DNA of 64,000 bases from Hypomesus transpacificus (Eukaryota; Chordata; Actinopteri; Osmeriformes; Osmeridae): assembly GCF_021917145.1 (NCBI RefSeq), contig NC_061061.1, positions 9,619,390 to 9,683,389 of the forward strand. The letters run 5' to 3'. The first letter of the stretch is position 1; each line of letters begins with the position of its first letter. The position numbers and the translations under genes were made by a program. Below are positions 25,579 to 52,220 of this stretch, piece after piece. The notes below the pieces were generated by a model, which searched no databases, was not told the origin of the DNA, and saw only the letters and a program-made list of their open reading frames with translations.

Positions 25579-28054
25579 CCCAGCTGTCCTGTTGGTGAAA
25601 CTGTACTGGAGACCCTGGGTCTCTCTTGATGCCCTGGAGGCAGACGAGTGCTTGCCGGAGTACAAGGGTGAAGCTTGGGGGGCAATTGTGAAAACTTTCC
25701 AGTGACCCAACTATTCCAGGAAAAACAAGAGGTGTCCCGCAAGGTCCTGTACACAGACCGGATGTAATTCTCTCAACTTTTAAGAATTGGCCTGTTCTCC
25801 CCCTTTCTTGTGCAGGTTTCCCATGGGGTTTGGTTTTTCTCTAGAGTCAGACTACATCTGTTGGGCCTGTTGAGACAATATCAGATTCCATTACCTGAAG
25901 TCTGACAAAAAACAAGGAAGGTGAAATAGTTACACAATCTCCACCTGCAACAAATGCACATACCTCTTTCACATTGATATATACACAAAAACCTAAATCA
26001 ACATCAACAACCCTAAACAGGGTTTAACCGTTTCCCTCAACTCTTCACATTCGAAAGAACACATTTGAAAGGATCCCTTTTAGCAGAATCAAGTATTTAA
26101 AAGTTTGACAGATTTCAAACTCTTTTTGGACTTTATTACTTTTTAGTCATGCTAAATGGAAAGTAAAGATAATAGCCACTAAGTCAGGCACAACTGTATT
26201 TGCACTATGCTGCAGAGACACATGGTGAAGAAGCAATCGATGATATCACACCCCTCAAGACATTAATTAGGCCTAATTTAGGAAGGGAATGTTCCTTTAA
26301 CTGAGGGGAAGACATTGAGTCTGTTTACATCAACATGTGTTGGAAGAGAGTGTTTGGCAGTGCCAAGATGAAGACAAACATTGCACAGAACAATCTTTGG
26401 CCAAGGTTAGCTCCCCAGTGGTCCACATGTCCTAATTGCAACCATAGAGGATAAATGGGTAATTATTTTGTTGTATTATTGACATTATAGTTGCAATTAA
26501 ATGTGTTTACATGTAAAGTTACATCTATTGAACAACATACAATAGCAAGCATTAGTTTAAATATATCCCTCAAGCAAGGCAGATTAAATATATTTGGTTC
26601 AAATATACCATATTTCTACACTAGCTGTCACATTAGGTGTCAGCATGCTATGTGTCTGTGACACAGCATGCAAGAGGAGACACTCAAAATGTAGTGGCAC
26701 AGTAGCCTGCGTTTTTTAATTAAATCAATAGCCTACACCCTTTACCAAGGTCTACTAGCCCTATGCTGGTTTCTAAACGTTTCCCTAATTCAGAGCTGAG
26801 AGCATCATAATTAACATGGACAACACATTCCCTCAAAGCAAAGCCAAAGTCAAGTTATTTTGTTTCTCATATACACCGTATGTCCTAATAAGGATAAATC
26901 TTGTATGAAATAGTAATTTGTGCAAAACGGAGAGCGAACTTATTTTTGAAGAATGTTGATAGTGATAGTTCAAACTGTAGGATTTATTTAATCTACGAAG
27001 CCAATTATGCGTGTCAACCGAGAGAGAGAAAAAAAGACACACCTTTCATATCCTACATTAAGACAGACATACAGAGATGGTGTCTGCTATTACAAAAATA
27101 AAACGGTTACTTGGTTTATCTTTAGCATAAGAAAAACACAATACGAACTATTTACCTACTTACCAACTGAGAAGCCGACAGGCAATGGTCTGTCTTAAAC
27201 GAATACATAGACAAAGAATTAAACCATTTTACTAAGAGCTCGATAAAAGTACTGTCCTTCGGCAAAAATCTTAGACGAACATGGACAGTAACACTACAGC
27301 GATACTCATGTCGTCGCCGTTGGGCTGAACAACTAACCGTTGTCTACACAGATTGCCTTCAGAAAAACGGGTTGATGTGTATTTTTATTGTAGGCAGCGT
27401 CAGAGCGCCGCTTTCCGGTAGCTCTCAAAATCATATATTAGGCCATGCAGTGCAGAGGTATTGCCTTAATAACTGATTTCCCATAGCCTACCCTACTCGA
27501 AGCAAGATAATATAGTAACATGTGAATAAAAACATTTGGCAAGATTTCACATTTCTGTAAAATAAAAGAAAAAAAAGGCTTTTCATGTATTTATTCAAAA
27601 GTTTTTCCAGTGATCACCTGTAGTCTTGAAAACAATATTTTGCATGCAGATGAAGTCTGGTATCTGGACTGAATTATTTTCCACGTCACTCACTGCTCTC
27701 TTGCGACACCTGCCTCGTTGCTTTTAGGTGAAATAAACAAACTAAAAACGTCAAAGATGTTAGTCATGAAAAGAAATGCTTTTTCATCTTAAAGAGTTAT
27801 ACTTACACTCTGCTTGTGTTCTTCATCTGTCCAGCAGATTGCGCTGTTTTCTTATGTTGGGAATCTCATAATTTATGACCTCCATAAAGAGGTAATTGTG
27901 TCTACCTGGGACAACTGATTGTTCAAGACAATTATTAACTTTGTTCAACACTCCTTCCCACAGATTCTGAGTACATGCACAAAACCAGTATCATTTGCCT
28001 CTTACAGAGAGTTCAAGTGATCAGCTCGGTTCTGTCATAGTCTTTTTCGTCAAA
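25579..28054. other. Divergent intergenic region between cdc42se1 and the finTRIM-like gene
   Basis: Should hold the cdc42se1 5' UTR and promoter (minus) and the finTRIM-like 5' flank (plus). 27240-27430 is less AT-rich and could be the cdc42se1 promoter/first exon. I see no tandem repeats, RNA genes or clear coding exons. Confidence 0.35.
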
Positions 28055-29331
28055 ATGACTGAGGCCATGGACTCAATCAGTTGTCCCATTTGTATAGATC
28101 CACTGAAGAATCCAGTGACTATTCCCTGTGGTCACAGCTACTGTATGGAATGTATTGTGTACTACTGGGATCAGGATGATCAGAAGGGAGTCTGCAGCTG
28201 CCCCATCTGCCAAGAAAGCTTTATCCCAAGGCCTGTGCTAAAGAAAAACACTGTGCTTGTGGATCTGGTGGATAAAATTGAAAAGATGGGATTTGAGTCT
28301 GCTTCTACGTCTAACTGTTATGCTGGATCTGAAGATATAGATTGTGACGTCTGCACTGAGAGAAAGCAGAAAGCCCTCAAGTCCTGTCTGGTGTGTCTGG
28401 CCTCTTACTGTGAGGCTCACCTCCAGCCTCACCATGAGTCGCCTGCCTTTAAGAATCACAAGCTGGTCAAAGCCTCCTCAAACTTGCAGGAGAAGATCTG
28501 CTCTAGTCACAATAAACTGTTGGAGGTTTTCTGCCGTACTGACCAGAAGTGTATTTGTTATCTATGCTTCGTGGGTCAACATAAAGACCATGAGACAGTT
28601 TCAGCTGTAAGAGAAATCAAAGAGAAACGGGTGAGAATCTAAACTTTCATTAATTGACTCTGATTAACGTAGAAAAGAAGGCATGGCCCAGCAGTAGGTC
28701 ACTGCAAAGTACATTCTGTACTCCTTTTTGATTGAGAGTTGGATAGAGCAAAGGTTACACTACCCAGAGCCATAGAAAAAGAGGTAGGGCAAGTGGAAGA
28801 GAAATGTACTTGTCCCGCTGGACAAGTTAAACCTCAAACAAAATAAAATGTCCAATGTTATGTTCCACTATAGGCTACGTCTAGTTAACCCATTTTAAAA
28901 TAGCTAGCTAGCTTTTTTCCTCTGTTTCGGTGAAGTTGATACTTTGATCTCGTAGAATTCTACAGCAAAAAGGACAAGGAGGACAACCTTTAAGACAGAA
29001 AGCGATTCCCCATTGATTTGTCGCATCAGAATTTTGATTTGGGTCACGAAAGTCTTGAAATTTTAGTGAGAATGCGTCGCCCGCATAGTCTTAGGCGGCA
29101 GCCATTTCTGGGACCCCGTTACACTGTTTTGACGTTAGCCTTAGGCCGAATGCCAATACTCCCCCTTACCCTTGGCCCTCGAAAGTAAGGGGTAAGGGCT
29201 ACATAGCCCTAGGAAATGGGACGCCACTTGGTTACAGGTACGTCATCTAGCACGTATCGATATCTCCAAAGCAAGTAGCGTTATGCACTGACATTAAACG
29301 AAATTCGCTGCTAATGGAGTTTACTTAGAAC

Positions 29332-33740: not shown

Positions 33741-34232
33741 TTGAATGACTGTAGCAACCTTGTAGCAACTTTTGGACCGATTCTGAAGTTTGCTGATATG
33801 TCAGAAGAACAAACAAAAGTGTCATGCCAGACTCTTACAAGAGCATATCCAAAGGATCTCACAGCTGGATTCGAGGAGGAAGTTTTGCACCTGAAAAAAA
33901 TACATCAGGCAACATTTCCTCAAGACCTGTCACCTCTTCAGCTCCTTAATGCCATTTATAATCTCCAACTACAGAGCATTTTTGGAGAAATCTGTATAGC
34001 ATTGAGGATTTTCTGCACCCTACCCGTAAGTGTTGCTGGCGGAGAACGGGCTTTCAGCAAAATGAAGCTAGTCAAAAACTACCTGAGGTCCACCATGTCC
34101 CAGGACAGACTGAACAGTCTTGCTCTTCTCTCGATTGAAAGCCAATTGGCAAGAGCATTGGACTTTAAGGACCTTATCAGGGATTTTGCCAACAAGAAGA
34201 CCCGTCAGTGGGCATTTTCTGCGACTCAGTGA
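33741..34232 (+). pseudogene. hAT transposase C-terminal fragment (ZMYM1-like dimerisation domain)
   Basis: An open frame of 163 codons inside hAT element 2, with no ATG start. It contains the C-terminal hAT dimerisation signature: LPVSVAGGERAFSKMKLVKN, then LRSTMSQDRLNSLALLSIES. The upstream RNase-H-like catalytic part is absent, so this is a truncated relic and not a host gene. Confidence 0.85.
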
Positions 34233-35580: not shown

Positions 35581-38500
35581 ACAGTTTCCTCCTTCACGCC
35601 TATCAAAGCGTAATGGCAGACTGTATTATTATACATTTTCTATATAAAACACATACAATTATGTACTGTGACTATGATTCTATACTTACATTTTCAATAC
35701 AAATTATATTCCTAGTAGACCGTTTTATCCAAAGCAATGTAAAAATTGTGAAAACAGAAAGTACAGCAGAAGATCAAGGATTAGAAGTGCATAGTTCTAC
35801 AGTGTTTCAGGGGTCAGAGTCAAACAGTCTGTTACCGGTCACATTGCAAAGTCACCACATCTCAGCTCCTAGGCACGGTGAACAAAACAGTGTGACAATT
35901 ACAATTAAGTACATTTGTTCCGTGTACTTATATGTTAAGTTAAGTCTGCTTGCGTTGTCTTGTCTTAAGAATTTCAGTGCCCAGTCTAACCTTGTGTTGT
36001 TCTGTGCATCTGACTAATAAAAGACTTGAACTTGAACTAAGTACTTGGATACGGTGCAATGACATCTCAATTAATCATAAGATCTCAATTCTTCAACTAC
36101 AGTCTAAAAATAACATCTCAATTATGGAAGTATTCTAATGTCCTATTCTGCCTATCAAACAACCACTGTTGATAAAGGATATTTATTCATAGATGGAGCT
36201 GGGTTTGAGTCAGCAAAAACTGCAGCAGACAATCCAGGAAAGAAATAAGGAGCAGAAGGAGCTTCAACAGGCTGTGATGTCTTTCAATGTAAGTGTATCC
36301 AAAGAAAACAAATATTTTGTCTGTTGCTGTACATATGTGTGTGTTTGCAAAATATGTGGTTTGTCCCCTTACAGCACTCAGCACAAGAAGCAGAAAAGAA
36401 CAGTGAGAGGATCTTTAATGAGCTGATCCGCTCCATTGAGAGAAGACGCTCTGAGATTAAGAAGCTGATCAGAGCCCAGCAGAGGGCAGCAGTGAGTCAG
36501 GCTGAAGGACTCCTGGAACGCCTGGAGCGCGAGATAACTGAGCTGAAGACAAGAGATGCTGAATTAGAGAAGCTTTCCCTCACAGAAGATCACATACTCT
36601 TTCTCCTGGTAATTCTACTTACCTTCTATCTAGAACAAAGAAGTAACTGACAGTTCAGCTAACCTATTGTTTTGTCCTCCCCCCCCCGTTTTTCAGAGAT
36701 ATCCATCTCTTTCCAGTCTATCTTCAGACTTACCCATCATCCTAGTCCCTCCTCCACTGTACTTTGGAGATGTGACTGAGGCTCTGTCTGAGCTGAAAGA
36801 GAAATTAGAGAACCTCCTTAAAGGGGAGTGGCTTAACATCCCAACCAAACGTAGGTACAAAACTAGACCTATGGGTGGATCACACAAGCACTTTTAAATT
36901 ATGACGATATGCCTCATGATGTGATTTGAATGCCTCCATTTGAATGTGTTTTTGTGTCTTTAGTGAGTTTGGTTGATGTTGTACTGCCACTCGAACCTAA
37001 GACGAGATGATTTCTTAAAATGTAAGTTTCTATGTAACTGTGTGTCTCCACTGACACTACATATTAAGACTGAGACAAACATAGACATGGAGGGGAAGTA
37101 ATAGGCTACTGGATCAAATCTGCATATACAGGATCTCTCTTGATTTGTTCCTTGCTCTTTTCCCAGATTCCTGTTCCCTCACACTGGACCCAAACACAGC
37201 ACAGAAACACATTCGTCTGTCTAATGGGAACAGAAAGGCAGAATGTGTGTGGCCACAGCCTTATCCCAACCATTCTGAAAGGTTCTATAAATGTCTGCAG
37301 GTGCTGTGTAAAGAGGACGTATCTGCACGCTGTTACTGGGAAGTAGAGTGGAGTGTTTTAGGGGTTTATATAGCACTCTCCTACAAAGATGTAGGGTGCA
37401 ATGCTGACTGTGGATTTGGATGCAATGACAAGTCCTGGAGCTTGCAATGTTATAATGGTGGTTATAGTTTCAAATACAATAATGTTGCTACTGCCTTGTC
37501 AGGCCCCATGTCCTCCAGGGTAGGAGTGTACCTGGATCACAAGGCAGGTACTCTGTCCTTTTACAGCATCTCTGACACAATGACCCTCCTGCACCAAGTC
37601 CAGACCACATTCACTCAGCCACTCTATCCTGGGTTTGGGTTTGGGTTTGTTTCTTTGGTACGTGGGTCCAGTTTTGAACTGTGCTAGATGGATTCTAATT
37701 TTGTAATTCAGAAGATGATTTACAATACAATATTTTCTCTATTGTCAATGTTGTGTAGAAATAGAAACTAGATTATCTATTTTAGGAGCAAAATTCATTC
37801 AGGCCATTGATTTAGATTTTACTCAAATGCAATCAGAGCAATGAAGTGGCGGTAAGGATATTATTTTTGAAAAATTAGATTAAATTCATGAGGGAAAGTG
37901 TTGATTGGGCTATTGTTTTGGATTTTGTGTACCTGCACCTGGAAGAACTTAAATAAACCTGTAAGTTATTTTGTGGAGAAACATATCTGTTGATTTATTC
38001 TCATGTAAACTTGTGTGGGAGCGTCTGAGCTGGTCTCTCCTCCTTCACTCTTCCTGAGTTTGTTCAGGTGACCTGCCACGTGCCTAGGGCTAGGGCTACT
38101 TCAAGAACCCCTTGACAGCAACCTTGACATTGATCTTATAGAAACAGACCTGAGGCCAGTAGTAAAGTCAGACAAGGTGTCTGACAGCAGGGGGCGCAAT
38201 ACAACAGCCAGAGAAAGGGGTGGAAAAGCAGACGGTTTGCCCCCTAGCTAATTTAAAGTCCAATGTATCCATTGATGATCTATCATAGCCTTTAGTTGTT
38301 CTGTATGTTCATGTGCAACATTTGGATAGCCTAATTACTCTTTATCCACTTACCAAAGGACAACATTAACTTTTAGCCCAACAAGCCAACCCAATTATTT
38401 CCCATGTTGGCTATAGGCTACAGAAGGAGAGATAGCTGTTTCATTACATCATACCCAATACGACCCATATACGACCAATCGTTAATCATAATTGTTGAGT

Positions 38501-45214: not shown

Positions 45215-46558
45215 AACCATAGATGTCAGGCATGTCAGAAACCATAGATGAATCATAAATAATTTATAGCAAGTTTGTCAACAAGAGTCTTTGTGGGTAC
45301 AAACCCTTAAAATCACTCCAAGATCAATAAAAAACTCCAGTGTTTTCCCATTTAAATGTTTTTTCAGAAATGGTCCCAGCCCAGTTATTATATGCTATGA
45401 CATAATAGTGAACTTTCGAAGTTTATTTTTAGTGATGATTCAGTATGCATTTGGTTATCCAACACACTCACCCACAAAAGGTCACAATGATCAGCATGTC
45501 TTCTTCAAGTCAATGAGATAAAGGCATAGAGAAGCAACTGGGCCAATAGTCGACCACATTGGCACTTTCCATTGATTACCGGATTGCAATGAGATGGCAA
45601 AGGTTATGAAAGAAATGTTGCAAACAGAGCTACATTTCTGTCTATTCAGCACTTTTTGCATTCTTCTCAAATATGTACCTGTGAACACAACATTTTGCAG
45701 GACAAAAAGAACTCACATAAGCCATAAGAGCGTGCGACTCGAAGAATAGTGAAGAAGTCGGGGGTAACTGCTCAGTCAAGCATGTGATCCATTTGTGACA
45801 TCTGTGAAATCTCAAGAGGGTGAGTGTAACAAGATGCTGGTGGGATGCACTTTATGTTTCCGCTGACTCACTGTGTCTTCTGCACAGGGATCACTGAAGG
45901 GGAATGGAGGGGGCAGGATGTGGAACGGAGGGGGCTGGAGAGGGAAGGGGTGGGATAGAGCTGGCAGGGGTTTATATGGTGGCTGGCAGGATTTCAAAAG
46001 TATCATCTCCATATTAGGAGCTGAAGCCCACTAGTCTTTTTGGTCACAAAAACCTTTTTGATGTCAGTTCAAACTTCAGTGTTACGGACATGAAGGAAAT
46101 TGTGATTTGTTTTAAACTACAGGACTGTAAATTTGGTTGACTACACTGAACCAAGCATCCACTCAACTCATGGTGTGATACATTACTGTACTGTCCATAA
46201 TCAGATGAAATATTACAATCTGTCATTGCAAACTTCTGTAACACATTTTGGTCAAAACGTTGTGCATATGTGTGCACAGTGTGTGTATGCTGGGTGCATG
46301 CTGTACATGCACTGTCCATGTGTTGCATTGTGTATCAGCTTTCATTAAGACTCTGGTTTGACCCCATGTGTGTGTACAGACTGCAGAGTGATACATCTGT
46401 ATACAGAATGAGACTCTCTTGGGCTCTTTTTGAAAGATAGTCTTAAGAAACATGTACTGCAGGCAGACGGGAAACCAATTGTACATCATTATCAGTTTTA
46501 GTAAGAGTTTTAAATAACAGTTTATATCACTCGTCAGAATGAGTGGATGAGTTCTTGT

Positions 46559-48103
46559 TCAGGGGGGGGCGTCGATGTTAGCAGGCTTTTGCAGAGCCGA
46601 CCTGGAGTCAGCACACTTCCTCACCCACGTCACGCACATGACAATGCTGAGAACCATCACAGTCATCACCATCAACACCACTGAGCTGGAAAGGATGGTC
46701 AGACGATGTTCACGTGAAAACTCAGGTTGCCAGCTGATGTCCAGCCTGTTGTCCATACTGAGGTGAGAAGCGGTGCAGGTGTAGTTGTGTCTCTCTCTCA
46801 GCTCCTTGGAGGTGATGTCCAGGGTCTTCCTGACTTGGTACAGTCCATTCATGTTGGGCAGCACTGCCCCCCCTGTGAGCTCCTGCTCTGCTACAGCCTG
46901 GCCGTCCCTCAGCAGGGTCAGGTTGATGTGTCGGGGGTAGAAGTCAGTGGCCAGGCAGCTCACCTGAGCCCCTCCAGGGACTGCCTTCGTTATGAACCTG
47001 ACTCTGGGACACACCCTACAAAGCACCAATTTCTTTTCTTTTTTTAGTAAATATTTCAGACCCTTTACACAAGCGGGTAAGTGGAATGTTTGTGTAATTT
47101 TTTCATGAATGAACTCTATTTCATTGAATTGCAACTGCAATATTGTATTTCCAGTAGAGTATGCATAGTGTGTCATGTTGTAATGAAATCTATCAACATC
47201 AATTCCATCACAAGCATCTCCTGCCATTAGGGCTTATGGACTGTTGTTCATTATTTCACATCCTGCTATTCTCTGATATACATGAATCCCTGTGGTCAAA
47301 TTAAAGCTTTGTGTTAGAGAACTCATTCTTTCTTGCATTGCAAAGTAATGGTAATTTAATGCATGTACTCCATCCTGAAGTATGTGCTTTTCCTTTTTGG
47401 TTCCTTCTTGTCTGAAAAAAACTAGCTTCTCAACTGATGAGTCAAAGTAACCAATTTGAACATCATCCAACATCAATGTAACAGTAAATTCTGGAAATGG
47501 TGTCTCTCCTGTGATATGTTGCCAGTATCAACAGAGAAAGTCTTCCAGAACCTGAAAAACTGAATATAAATATATTAGATTGTGTTGGATGTTGTCTACA
47601 GTATGACTCCAGAAAAACCTTTTTGCTATCTTTTGACACTTTTCGAAGTTGTAACACTTACACCCACAGATAATGTTTTGTAAAACCTCAAAACAAGGAG
47701 AAAACTATTACTACAGTAGGTATCTTCAACATGTCCTGGCTTAAGTTATTTCAATATGGCAGTTGACATACTTTAAATGGAAAAGCAAAACTGACAACTA
47801 ACATGAAACTAACTTTTCATCAAATATAAAATACCTATGTTCACTAGCATTTCACTATTTACTGTTTACTGTGCATATGGCCACTATATTCACAAATAAT
47901 GACAGGACTGTAGGTATAATAATGTACCAGTAGTGCATGTCAAAGAGCCTATTCTATCGCTCTACCATAATATGGCTGATTGTCATATACAAAATCAGTT
48001 GTTTCATAAGATAGTATAAAGTACATAGTCCATAAGGTTCTTACCTGCAATCACAATGGTGCACAAAGAAAGAATTAATAAAAAAGACCCAGAAGGTCCC
48101 CAT
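46559..48103 (-). pseudogene. Broken MHC class I gene (teleost L-lineage-like)
   Basis: Minus strand. A leader-like exon at 48103-48045 ends in a good donor (GCAG/GTAAGA); the main exon runs 47551-46559. The main exon is colinear with the intact gene at 48731-50129: alpha1 (LMLDDVQIGYFDSSVEKL), alpha2 (DACDGIDVDRFHYNMTHYAY), alpha3 (VSCLATDFYPRHINLTLLRD), a transmembrane helix (SSVVLMVMTVMVLSIVMCV) and a short tail. It is disabled: relative to the intact copy a 2-nt loss after LATY shifts frame in alpha1; a nonsense TAA replaces a serine codon after CEIMNNSP; and the leader's signal-peptide frame (FLLILSLCTIVIAG) is out of register with its ATG. The alpha3 block is identical in DNA to the intact copy over about 265 bp. 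A transcript might still exist, but no full class I chain can be made. Confidence 0.85.
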
Positions 48104-48730
48104 GTTTTTTTTTAAGTGTTCACTATTTTGAAGCCTTCTGGGAATGTTTTCCGAAGAACATTGTTGAGCCAAACATAAGCCTTGATAGCTCACCTCTTAA
48201 TGTTGTTGATCCAGACAAACCAGTTCATATGGCCTGTCTCCAGGTACATTCCACCATCACAAACTGACTATTGAATTAATCTGGAGCTTCTAGATCGGTT
48301 CCCATGAACAAAACATTTGCAGAAACCTACTTTGCAGTTGGCCATATTTTATTCAGAAACCAGCTGAACTGGACATGGTACGTATATCTCACTACTTATA
48401 TTTTTTGTGAATGTTTTGTGAATTAGGAACAAATAACCATTGAAAGTAAAGGTGTAATCCTTAACATCTTTAAAATAACCGTAACTCATTAATCAACTCA
48501 ATTTACACACTGTAGATTTTGGCGGCAGCCTCCCACAAACAGTTAAAGCATACTTATTATTTGCATTGTATTACCATACAGGATGCTGTTTGTTCATTGG
48601 TTTTAGTTCCCATCAGAGACAAGCTTCCTGATGTTATTTGATTGGTTGAATAACTTTCACATGAACAAGGAACAATAAGGGTGAAAGTGAAAGGAGGCAC
48701 AATTACTACGACTAGGAAAATAGTCTAAAA
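48104..48730. promoter_or_regulatory. Bidirectional promoter between the two MHC class I copies
   Basis: 627 bp separate the leader ATGs of the divergent genes. On the plus strand a perfect interferon-stimulated response element lies close to the intact gene. CCAAT (Y-box-like, read as ATTGG) sites lie at 48596-48600 and 48641-48645, the latter within TTGATTGG, resembling the SXY module of class I promoters. Confidence 0.5.
48683..48692 (+). promoter_or_regulatory. Interferon-stimulated response element (ISRE)
   Basis: GAAAGTGAAA matches the IRF/ISRE core GAAANNGAAA exactly and lies 39 bp before the ATG of the intact MHC class I gene. Class I promoters typically carry an ISRE close to the start site, so interferon inducibility is likely. 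Confidence 0.65.
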
Positions 48731-50129
48731 ATGCGTTTTGATCTTTGGTTTTGTCTTTCTTTCTACACCATTGCAAATGCAGGTACGATAAGAATGACTA
48801 ATGATTAAGTTGTATTTGTTTGACTAACGTGAACATTTCCAGAAATTCTTTATGAACATTTTTATGCACATAGTTGTCATTCATCTAACCTTGTTATAGT
48901 CTGCTATCAGTTCAATTACATTTGGTATAATGTTTTCAAACTGAATTACATTCTAAACATGCTGAATTAAAGAGCTGAATTGTGTAAAAAACTAAACAAA
49001 CAACAGTACATAAATAAGACTAGTAATAGATTGTGATGTTTTAGATCTTGTTTTCATTAAGGAGGAGCTTAGTTCCATGCCTCTTTCAGGTTCTGGAAGA
49101 CATTCTCTGTGGATGTTGGCGACATACATCACAGGAGAGACACCCTTTCCAGAATTCACTGCTGTACTGATGCTGGATGATGTTCAAGTTGGTTACTTTG
49201 ACTCTAACATCAACAAATTAGTTCAATCCAGGCATTCAGCAAACACACATCCCAATGACATCGCTCAGGACGGAGTTTTTGTTTTAAATAACATGTACAT
49301 TAGCATGAAAAGAAGATTGAGTATTGTAAAACAGCGCTTTAATCTGACTACAGGTGTCCATGTCCAGCAGAGAAAAGCAGGTTGTGAAATTTTGGACGAT
49401 GGAGAATCAGCCCAGATGATGTTCAGGGATGCTTGTGATGGAGTTGAAGCTGATGGATTGGTTTACAACATGACAGAGTATTCATACTCAACTGGAAATC
49501 CTTGGCAGTTGCAATGGGATCAAATGAAGCTTATTTATGTCAAAATGCGCTATTCAACCTTTTATCTCCCTGTTTGCATTCAAAAATTAAAGTATTTCTT
49601 AGAAAGAAAAAAGAAATTGGTGCTTCGTAGGGTGCGTCCCAGAGTCAGGTTCATAGAGAAGGCAGTCCCTGGAGGGGCTCAGGTGAGCTGCCTGGCCACT
49701 GACTTCTACCCCCGACACATCAACCTGACCCTGCTGAGGGACGGCCAGGCTGTAGCAGAGCAGGAGCTCACAGGGGGGGCAGTGCTGCCCAACATGAATG
49801 GACTGTACCAAGTCAGGAAGACCCTGGACATCACCTCCAAGGAGCTGAGAGAGAGACACAACTACACCTGCACCGCTTCTCACCTCAGTATGGACAACAG
49901 GCTGGACATCAGCTGGCAACCTAAGAACTCACACAAACATTCCATATCCATGATCTTGTGTGTCTTGGTAATCATACCAATTTTGAGTTTTGGGGGGATT
50001 GTTTCCGGCCTCTTCCTATTTATTAGGAGGGTAAGGAGACGTACTGACTCCAGGACAACTCTGCAGCAGCCGGCTAATGTTGATCAAGAGAATGTGCAAC
50101 TGAATCCATTACCTCACTCTGACAGCTGA
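48731..50129 (+). CDS. MHC class I heavy chain, L-lineage-like, nearly intronless
   Basis: Exon 1 (48731-48782) encodes the signal peptide MRFDLWFCLSFYTIANA; exon 2 (49090-50129) encodes everything else, so alpha1, alpha2, alpha3, transmembrane and tail share one exon; 363 aa. Ordinary class I genes split these domains, whereas the teleost L lineage is known for processed (intron-poor) genes, which is why I suggest L. Alpha1 starts GSGRHSLWMLATYITGE; alpha2 has FRDACDGVEADGLVYNMTEY; alpha3 has the Ig pair Cys (VSCLATDF ... NYTCTASH) and NLT and NYT glycosylation sequons. The transmembrane segment is at about 303-328 (MILCVLVIIPILSFGGIVSG), then a basic stop-transfer RRVRRR and a tail ending NPLPHSDS. 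The classical peptide-anchor tyrosines are not evident, so a non-classical role is likely. It should pair with beta2-microglobulin. The exon 1/2 join is phase 1. Confidence 0.88.
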
Positions 50130-50950
50130 TATTAGCTTTCTTCCTCTTGTTGGGATTACTGATGGCAAAACAATTAGCCTGTAACCACCCCAGATAACAT
50201 TGTATTTTAGTGTATATTCAATACATTCAAGAGGATGTTGTTGCATTTGTTATCGCTTATTTGAGTCCATTCTTCTATAATTTTCTAATTCTCTTTTCTT
50301 TTTTCTTTTTTTTCTGTTAATGAGTTTGTGTCATCTCAGATGACAACTGATAGTTTGCTATTGCCAGTAATCTGTATGGAATAGATGGAGGTTTTTAGAC
50401 ACAACATTTCACATTTGGAAGATCTACACAGGTCTACACCAGGGCAGAAATGGTATACCAGGCTGATTTTATCATCAGTATTTTCTGTTTGGTTGAAGTT
50501 TTACGCTGACACAGGATAATGAGAATAATGTTTCTTTCATTTTACACTTTTGTAATGCTAGTACAAGATGAATTGAGGATTTAATGTATTTTTTTACATA
50601 ACAAATGTAATGTTATGAATCTCTTCCAATGAGTCATTGCTCAGGAAGTGACTTCTTACCCTGTACAAAAACACAAACAAGGGATTCAGGGACCAGCTCT
50701 CAGACAGTGTCCTCATAAAATATTGATGATCAAAAAACTGAATCCATCCTTTTGTTCTGACACCTGGTTTATGTGTTTTCTCGATGATACCTTCTAATAG
50801 ATATTGACAAAACCATTTTTTGCACCACATCAACAATAAAAATGTGACTTATTCTAAAATCTGTTTGAGCTGACTATGTCTCCAGTTTACTAACTTGTTG
50901 GGATCCAAGCAGCAAAGCTGCGGAAGCACCCATTGAGTTTCTCCCTCTTA

Positions 50951-51830: not shown

Positions 51831-52220
51831 TATACGGTGGCCCTGAAGTGCAAATGACACCCCCTAATATGAGTACATCCCCCAAATGAAAACACTCCCC
51901 CCCAATACGAGTCAACTCCCCCCAAATCGGATGACTTGTTCTTCTCCCCCCAATACAAAAACACGCTCCCCCAAATGGAATTCTTCGATATCCAAACAAA
52001 TTTTCTGGTGCATGTAACTCTGCCAGGCTATGGCATTTTGTACTTCTGTCGATCAATTTAATATTTCTTGTTAGTTAGCCTACTGCATCCATCCGTGTTG
52101 GGGGGAGGTGAACAAGTCATCCGATTTGGAGGGAGTTGACTCGTATTGGGGTGGAGTGTTTTCATTTGGGGGATGTACTCATATTAGGGGGTGTCATTTG
52201 CACTTCAGGGCCACCGTATA
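51831..52220. mobile_element. Foldback MITE with long terminal inverted repeats
   Basis: The left arm (51831-about 51945) and right arm (about 52100-52220) are inverted over roughly 115 bp: TATACGGTGGCCCTGAAGTG at the left, CACTTCAGGGCCACCGTATA at the right. The arms are rich in CCCCC and alternate with AATATGAGT-type spacers. No coding sequence. Flanking TA on each side may be the target duplication. Confidence 0.85.

Follow-up and report, generated by a model that had tools for sequence, protein, structure and literature searches.

Two old, head-to-head MHC class I duplicates in a fish genome, clearly diverged over most of their length, share an alpha3-coding segment of 265 bp that is identical to the last nucleotide, an identity very probably produced when one inverted exon recently underwent interlocus gene conversion by the other. 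Such conversion had been proposed in the initial annotation of the sequence, and we judge it the best explanation of the tract. The pair lies in a window of 64 kb, by which we mean the whole stretch of DNA analysed. The broken copy on the minus strand is referred to below as copy A and the open copy on the plus strand as copy B.

An intact MHC class I gene and its decayed neighbour

Copy B is probably a two-exon gene, to judge from its reading frame and splice signals, with a leader exon and a single exon for the remainder of the protein. The predicted leader exon (48731..48782, plus strand, 52 nt) is signal-peptide-like and directly followed by a GT donor, the putative intron (48783..49089, 307 nt) ends in a pyrimidine-rich CAG, and exon 2 (49090..50129) encodes all three alpha domains together with the transmembrane part and tail. 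The predicted spliced frame is open over 363 amino acids. The gene had initially been started with a 350-amino-acid frame at 49077; we set this model aside in favour of the leader exon upstream, since the ATG at 49077 directly precedes the splice acceptor. The assignment of the pair to MHC class I is borne out by Pfam, which finds in copy B both the MHC_I domain of alpha1/alpha2 (33.2 bits, cut-off 28.3) and the C1-set domain of alpha3 (46.3 bits, cut-off 21), the combination expected of a class I alpha chain. The best PDB match of copy B by sequence is the MHC class I antigen 5h5z (E 8.9e-30), presumably from grass carp. A structure prediction for exon 2 of copy B made without an alignment reached a mean pLDDT of 40.9 and was left out of account.

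Copy A follows the same plan on the opposite strand, with a leader-like exon (48045..48103), an intron of 493 nt and the remains of exon 2 (46527..47551), which begin at 47551 and end at a stop codon position aligned with that of copy B, and it has decayed into a pseudogene. Four lesions are known: the leader-like exon has its ATG in another frame than the reading that resembles a signal peptide, two nucleotides are deleted from alpha1 in the alignment (47515..47516), a TAA stop in alpha2 (47234..47236) replaces the TCA found in copy B at 49407, and the tail contains a probable frameshift, visible as a 1-nt alignment gap beside a run of C (46564..46572). As the leader and tail lesions adjoin homopolymers, they could be base errors, an explanation that hardly suits the TAA, which arose by substitution. 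The possibility that copy A is a live, N-terminally shortened gene with a 222-amino-acid frame was considered and rejected, as such a gene would have no leader and a broken alpha1, and GAAANNGAAA, the looser form of the ISRE described below, is absent in either direction from the 500 bp before the ATG of copy A. The earlier description of an inverted pair, with one copy broken and the other open, thus holds.

Identity confined to alpha3

The initial annotation had put the identical alpha3 block at about 265 bp by eye, and the match proves to be exactly that: the tracts at 49658..49922 (copy B, plus strand) and 46724..46988 (copy A, minus strand) are exact reverse complements with no difference in 265 positions, and at both ends the very next base already mismatches. 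The divergence of the remaining domains, likewise noted before, is substantial. In a pairwise alignment of the homologous exon, with gap columns left out, the copies differ in 71 of 262 columns of alpha1, in 82 of 296 columns of alpha2 as far as the tract, and in 87 of 197 columns of the transmembrane part and tail. When identity is plotted base by base along copy B in 50-bp windows, as had been suggested, it is far from uniform and peaks at the alpha3 tract: the eleven windows from 49091 to 49640 range from 23/47 to 43/48 matches, those covering 49641–49890 have 48/50 and then four times 50/50, the one at the 3' edge has 43/50, and the four from 49941 to 50140 fall to between 17/41 and 34/49. 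Of the 1022 aligned columns 240 are mismatched; the longest unbroken run of matches spans 265, and 20,000 permutations of these columns produced none longer than 61.

One rival explanation does without conversion and ascribes the identity either to purifying selection on the surfaces that bind beta2-microglobulin and the co-receptor or to a young duplication of the gene. In salmon L genes, alpha3 is indeed the domain with the strongest conservation, according to the accessible text of PMC6797598. However, the tract comprises 88 codons with 63 synonymous sites (NG86), none of which has changed, as the initial annotation had anticipated, and protein constraint therefore cannot account for its identity; moreover, one of the two copies is a pseudogene. 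A young duplication, for its part, is at odds with the 153 of 558 differing columns in alpha1 and alpha2 taken together and with the even more diverged tails. The corresponding NG86 estimates are dN 0.29 and dS 0.56 for alpha1/alpha2 (183 codons, one codon with a stop having been dropped) and dN 0.64 and dS 0.95 for the tail (63 codons). We give this explanation practically no credence.

The identity of an antisense frame across the tract had also been adduced as support. This frame is identical in the two copies, yet it carries no weight of its own, and we reject it as a gene: when the tract was resampled synonymously 2000 times, an antisense frame of the same length or longer persisted in 772 cases under the codon usage of the segment itself and in 49 of 2000 under that of the whole gene, and the frame matches no Pfam family at E 0.01.

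Searching the genome for alpha3 with the best 21 candidates scored, a setting in which a further distant copy could be missed, yielded five matches at E <= 0.001: copies A and B themselves, at 100% and 98%, and a further three at only 31–36%. Copies A and B are thus each other's only close partners among these 21 candidates, and no better donor or recipient for either was found there.

The sharp contrast between the tract and its surroundings might also stem from the assembly, if similar though non-identical alpha3 segments had been made alike during consensus building or polishing. Some base errors are possible, given that homopolymers adjoin two of the four copy A lesions. Against this, the window contains no N and lies within a 17.2-Mb contig (the assembly comprises 437 Mb in 376 contigs), and mis-polishing requires copies that are nearly identical, which, with flanks of 56–73% identity, would itself imply conversion. 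An artefact therefore appears unlikely to us.

Edges, age and direction of the probable conversion

Differences had been said to appear at once outside the block. This is true of the 3' edge, which is sharp and coincides with the end of alpha3 (after SWQP), the adjoining 50-bp window (49941–49990) having only 17 matches in 41 columns. It does not apply to the 5' edge, which is graded: the 54 bp at 49604–49657 contain six differences, with none at a third codon position. Over the codons at 49605–49658, 5 of 18 residues differ and 0 of 18 third positions, whereas across the bulk of alpha2 a third position differs in 32 of 79 codons (Fisher p 0.0005). The last 47 bp before the tract (49611..49657 in copy B, plus strand; 46989..47035 in copy A, minus strand) hold four of these differences, again none at third positions, and the pattern is suggestive of a second layer, in that this segment may belong to an older or longer conversion. 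The four differences, taken as three events, all fall within the first 47 of 312 bp, for which the chance under an even spread is about 0.003. At two sites in this segment copy B has CGT and copy A has TGT, which fits CpG decay of an unconstrained copy. At the first of them, chain 3p73 (Rfp-Y class I) has R in the PDB alignment, as does copy B, and with this one distant sequence as the basis the state of copy A is probably the derived one.

The absence of differences in 265 bp places the 95% upper bound of the age of the tract at 0.57, 1.13 or 1.88 million years under assumed rates of 1e-8, 5e-9 and 3e-9 per site and year, respectively. The age limit thus ranges from about 0.6 to 1.9 million years, depending on the rate assumed.

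The course of events that we infer would begin with an old duplication (alpha1/alpha2 dS about 0.56), after which copy A would have decayed. Where the two exons are most similar, a break or strand invasion could then have been repaired from the neighbouring copy, with some 265 bp of alpha3 replaced non-reciprocally. At the 3' end copying would have stopped for want of pairing in the diverged transmembrane part; the 47 bp preceding the tract may have been left by an earlier or longer event. The sequence being identical, the direction cannot be read from the tract. A transfer from B to A seems somewhat likelier than the reverse, because copy B is intact and presumably under selection. Copy A has only its four known lesions, all of them outside the tract, and the lesion-free state of the tract consequently proves little about direction.

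The third codon positions of the tract are richer in G and C (67 of 88) than those of the remainder of exon 2 of copy B (108 of 247; p 1.3e-7), a difference that fits both biased conversion and an inherited property of alpha3. We do not regard it as proof of long-lasting conversion, since it is unspecific: of two class I genes located on contig 4, one (L003) has a less pronounced increase (64/91 in alpha3, 52/92 in alpha2) and the other (L004) has none (51/94 in alpha3, 57/95 in alpha2, 66/90 in alpha1).

The geometry of the pair raises the further possibility of crossovers. The inverted arms, which also speak for gene conversion, measure 351 nt, are 95% complementary and enclose 2533 nt. A crossover within the alpha3 arms would flip 2.67 kb and swap the tails, with recurrent pairing maintaining the identity. 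The interval enclosed by the arms indeed contains the promoter region and, for each gene, the leader and alpha1/alpha2, with the tails lying outside; the greater divergence of the tails (87/197 against 153/558 columns for alpha1/alpha2) and the elevated GC3 of the tract would also agree with such flipping. However, a single orientation is seen in the one assembly, and the GC rise is as unspecific here as noted above, so we hold flipping as the source of the identity to be highly improbable. A broader version, in which the arms form a standing recombination device that keeps alpha3 matched between the live and the dead gene and occasionally flips the 2.67 kb, is in our view very unlikely; if true, it would give the live gene, with its interferon-driven alpha1/alpha2, a choice between two distinct transmembrane tails. 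Gene conversion between the inverted exons remains by far the preferred reading.

Likely affiliation of copy B with the teleost L lineage

Gene organization, hydropathy and anchor residues together make it likely that copy B belongs to the L lineage of teleost MHC class I genes. According to the accessible text of PMC4364491 and PMC6797598, most salmonid L-lineage genes consist of two exons, whereas zebrafish members keep the traditional organization. With its predicted leader exon and one exon for the remainder, copy B resembles most of the salmonid genes, its splice sites being deduced from the sequence. The GRAVY value of its alpha1/alpha2 (179 amino acids) is -0.336, close to the mean of -0.352, a high hydropathy, given for the lineage in the available part of PMC4364491, where scale and domain limits may differ from ours. 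Compared with 5h5z, copy B is changed at seven of eight positions (7, 59, 143, 146, 147, 159 and 171), with only R84 kept. We take these eight to be the classical peptide-anchoring residues, and their near absence is again a trait of the L lineage. In contrast to the salmonid L genes, we are dealing here with one inverted pair of which one partner is dead. Seventeen pattern matches in viral contigs and 29 in prokaryote contigs provided no confirmed relative.

The region upstream of copy B is also reminiscent of L genes. An ISRE, GAAAGTGAAA, is located 48 bp before the ATG (48683..48692, plus strand); on the two strands of the 64 kb there is no second exact copy of this 10-mer, and the looser GAAANNGAAA is present eight times. 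Two ATTGG motifs (inverted CCAAT) lie at 48641..48645 (-90, plus strand) and 48596–48600 (-135). Copy B is thus probably interferon-inducible, as far as expression can be predicted from promoter motifs. Its ISRE falls within the 627 bp between the two ATGs, and the promoters of copies A and B are therefore not fully separate. The salmon LIA promoter, as described in the accessible portions of PMC11695323 and PMC6797598, contains two ISREs of the form GAAA-gt-GAAA and a CCAAT box. Copy B is similar to Sasa-LIA in the form of its ISRE and in having a CCAAT box near the ATG; it differs in possessing one ISRE, salmonid LIA having at least two, and in that TTCAGAA, reported as a GAS-like element 2–9 bp from the ATG of LIA (PMC11695323, available text), occurs in copy B only at -379. 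A simple X-box-like pattern, admittedly a crude test, was not found, in agreement with L promoters being reported to lack the SXY module in the portion of PMC6797598 available.

Precedents for alpha3 homogenization

Homogenization of alpha3 is an already known phenomenon, of which the present pair is a new and very clean instance. Within-species homogenization of alpha3 (exon 4) in primates and rodents, with gene conversion as the proposed cause, is reported in the accessible text of PMC1403747. As here, alpha3 is alike between loci and alpha1/alpha2 are apart; however, the primate and rodent pattern is patchy and involves several functional genes, while we observe a perfect 265-bp tract in an inverted, intron-poor pair with a pseudogene as one partner. 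Species-specific similarity of alpha3 has also suggested interlocus recombination among teleost U genes and cavefish Z genes (PMC4364491, available text). Those cases concern different lineages and were deduced from trees and similarity, whereas the exact tract described here links two named copies. Judging by their titles, the papers retrieved on the L lineage, on alpha3/exon 4 homogenization and on interlocus conversion in teleosts do not describe this pair.

What makes the case clean is that no other close copy was found, that the tract is perfect and that one of its edges is sharp and the other graded, and the dead partner allows selection on that partner to be left out of account. The pair would thus allow conversion rate, tract length and direction to be measured in a fish MHC family. 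It also suggests that two-exon, ISRE-bearing L-type genes exist in this small-genome fish.

Other class I genes and the surroundings of the pair

A genome search with Pfam MHC_I, in which 15 candidates were scored, gave 13 matches by exon. Contig 4 accounts for ten of them, and contigs 22, 7 and 2 contribute a single match apiece, that of contig 2 being copy B. In this search copy A stayed below the threshold. The match on contig 22 (L010, 1958550–1959062) is a class I sequence with alpha1 and alpha2 in one intronless match of 115 bits; it has one TGA within the matched stretch, and alpha3 follows in later frames.

Three tandem class I genes on contig 4 (L012, L013 and L014, at about 1837555–1859003) display the opposite pattern. 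Compared with the first gene, identity of the second and third amounts to 97.8 and 96.7% in alpha1 and 97.5 and 96.8% in alpha2, and alpha3 is the least alike domain, at 85.5 and 83.9% (248 aligned columns). Class I copies of this genome thus do not share identical alpha3 domains as a rule. The pattern of the trio may reflect a separate conversion or exchange.

A Pfam search covering 12 of the 16 open reading frames of at least 110 amino acids in the window recognized BNIP2, RING/B-box, PRY-SPRY, hAT and arrestin domains in addition to the MHC pair. The genes reported beside pike and salmonid L genes, including VWA8 and F5 as well as FAH and ARNT2 (PMC7853315, accessible text), are not among the domains of these 12 frames, a comparison based on the domain list. 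Upstream of the MHC pair, RING/B-box and PRY-SPRY coding regions at 27995–28642 and 37145–37687 are TRIM-type-like. An open reading frame at 33741–34232 contains a hAT-family dimerisation domain and represents a transposon remnant or member. Finally, an inverted repeat of 126 nt (51831–51956 and 52095–52220), 96% complementary and with a spacer of 138 nt, is perhaps a mobile element.
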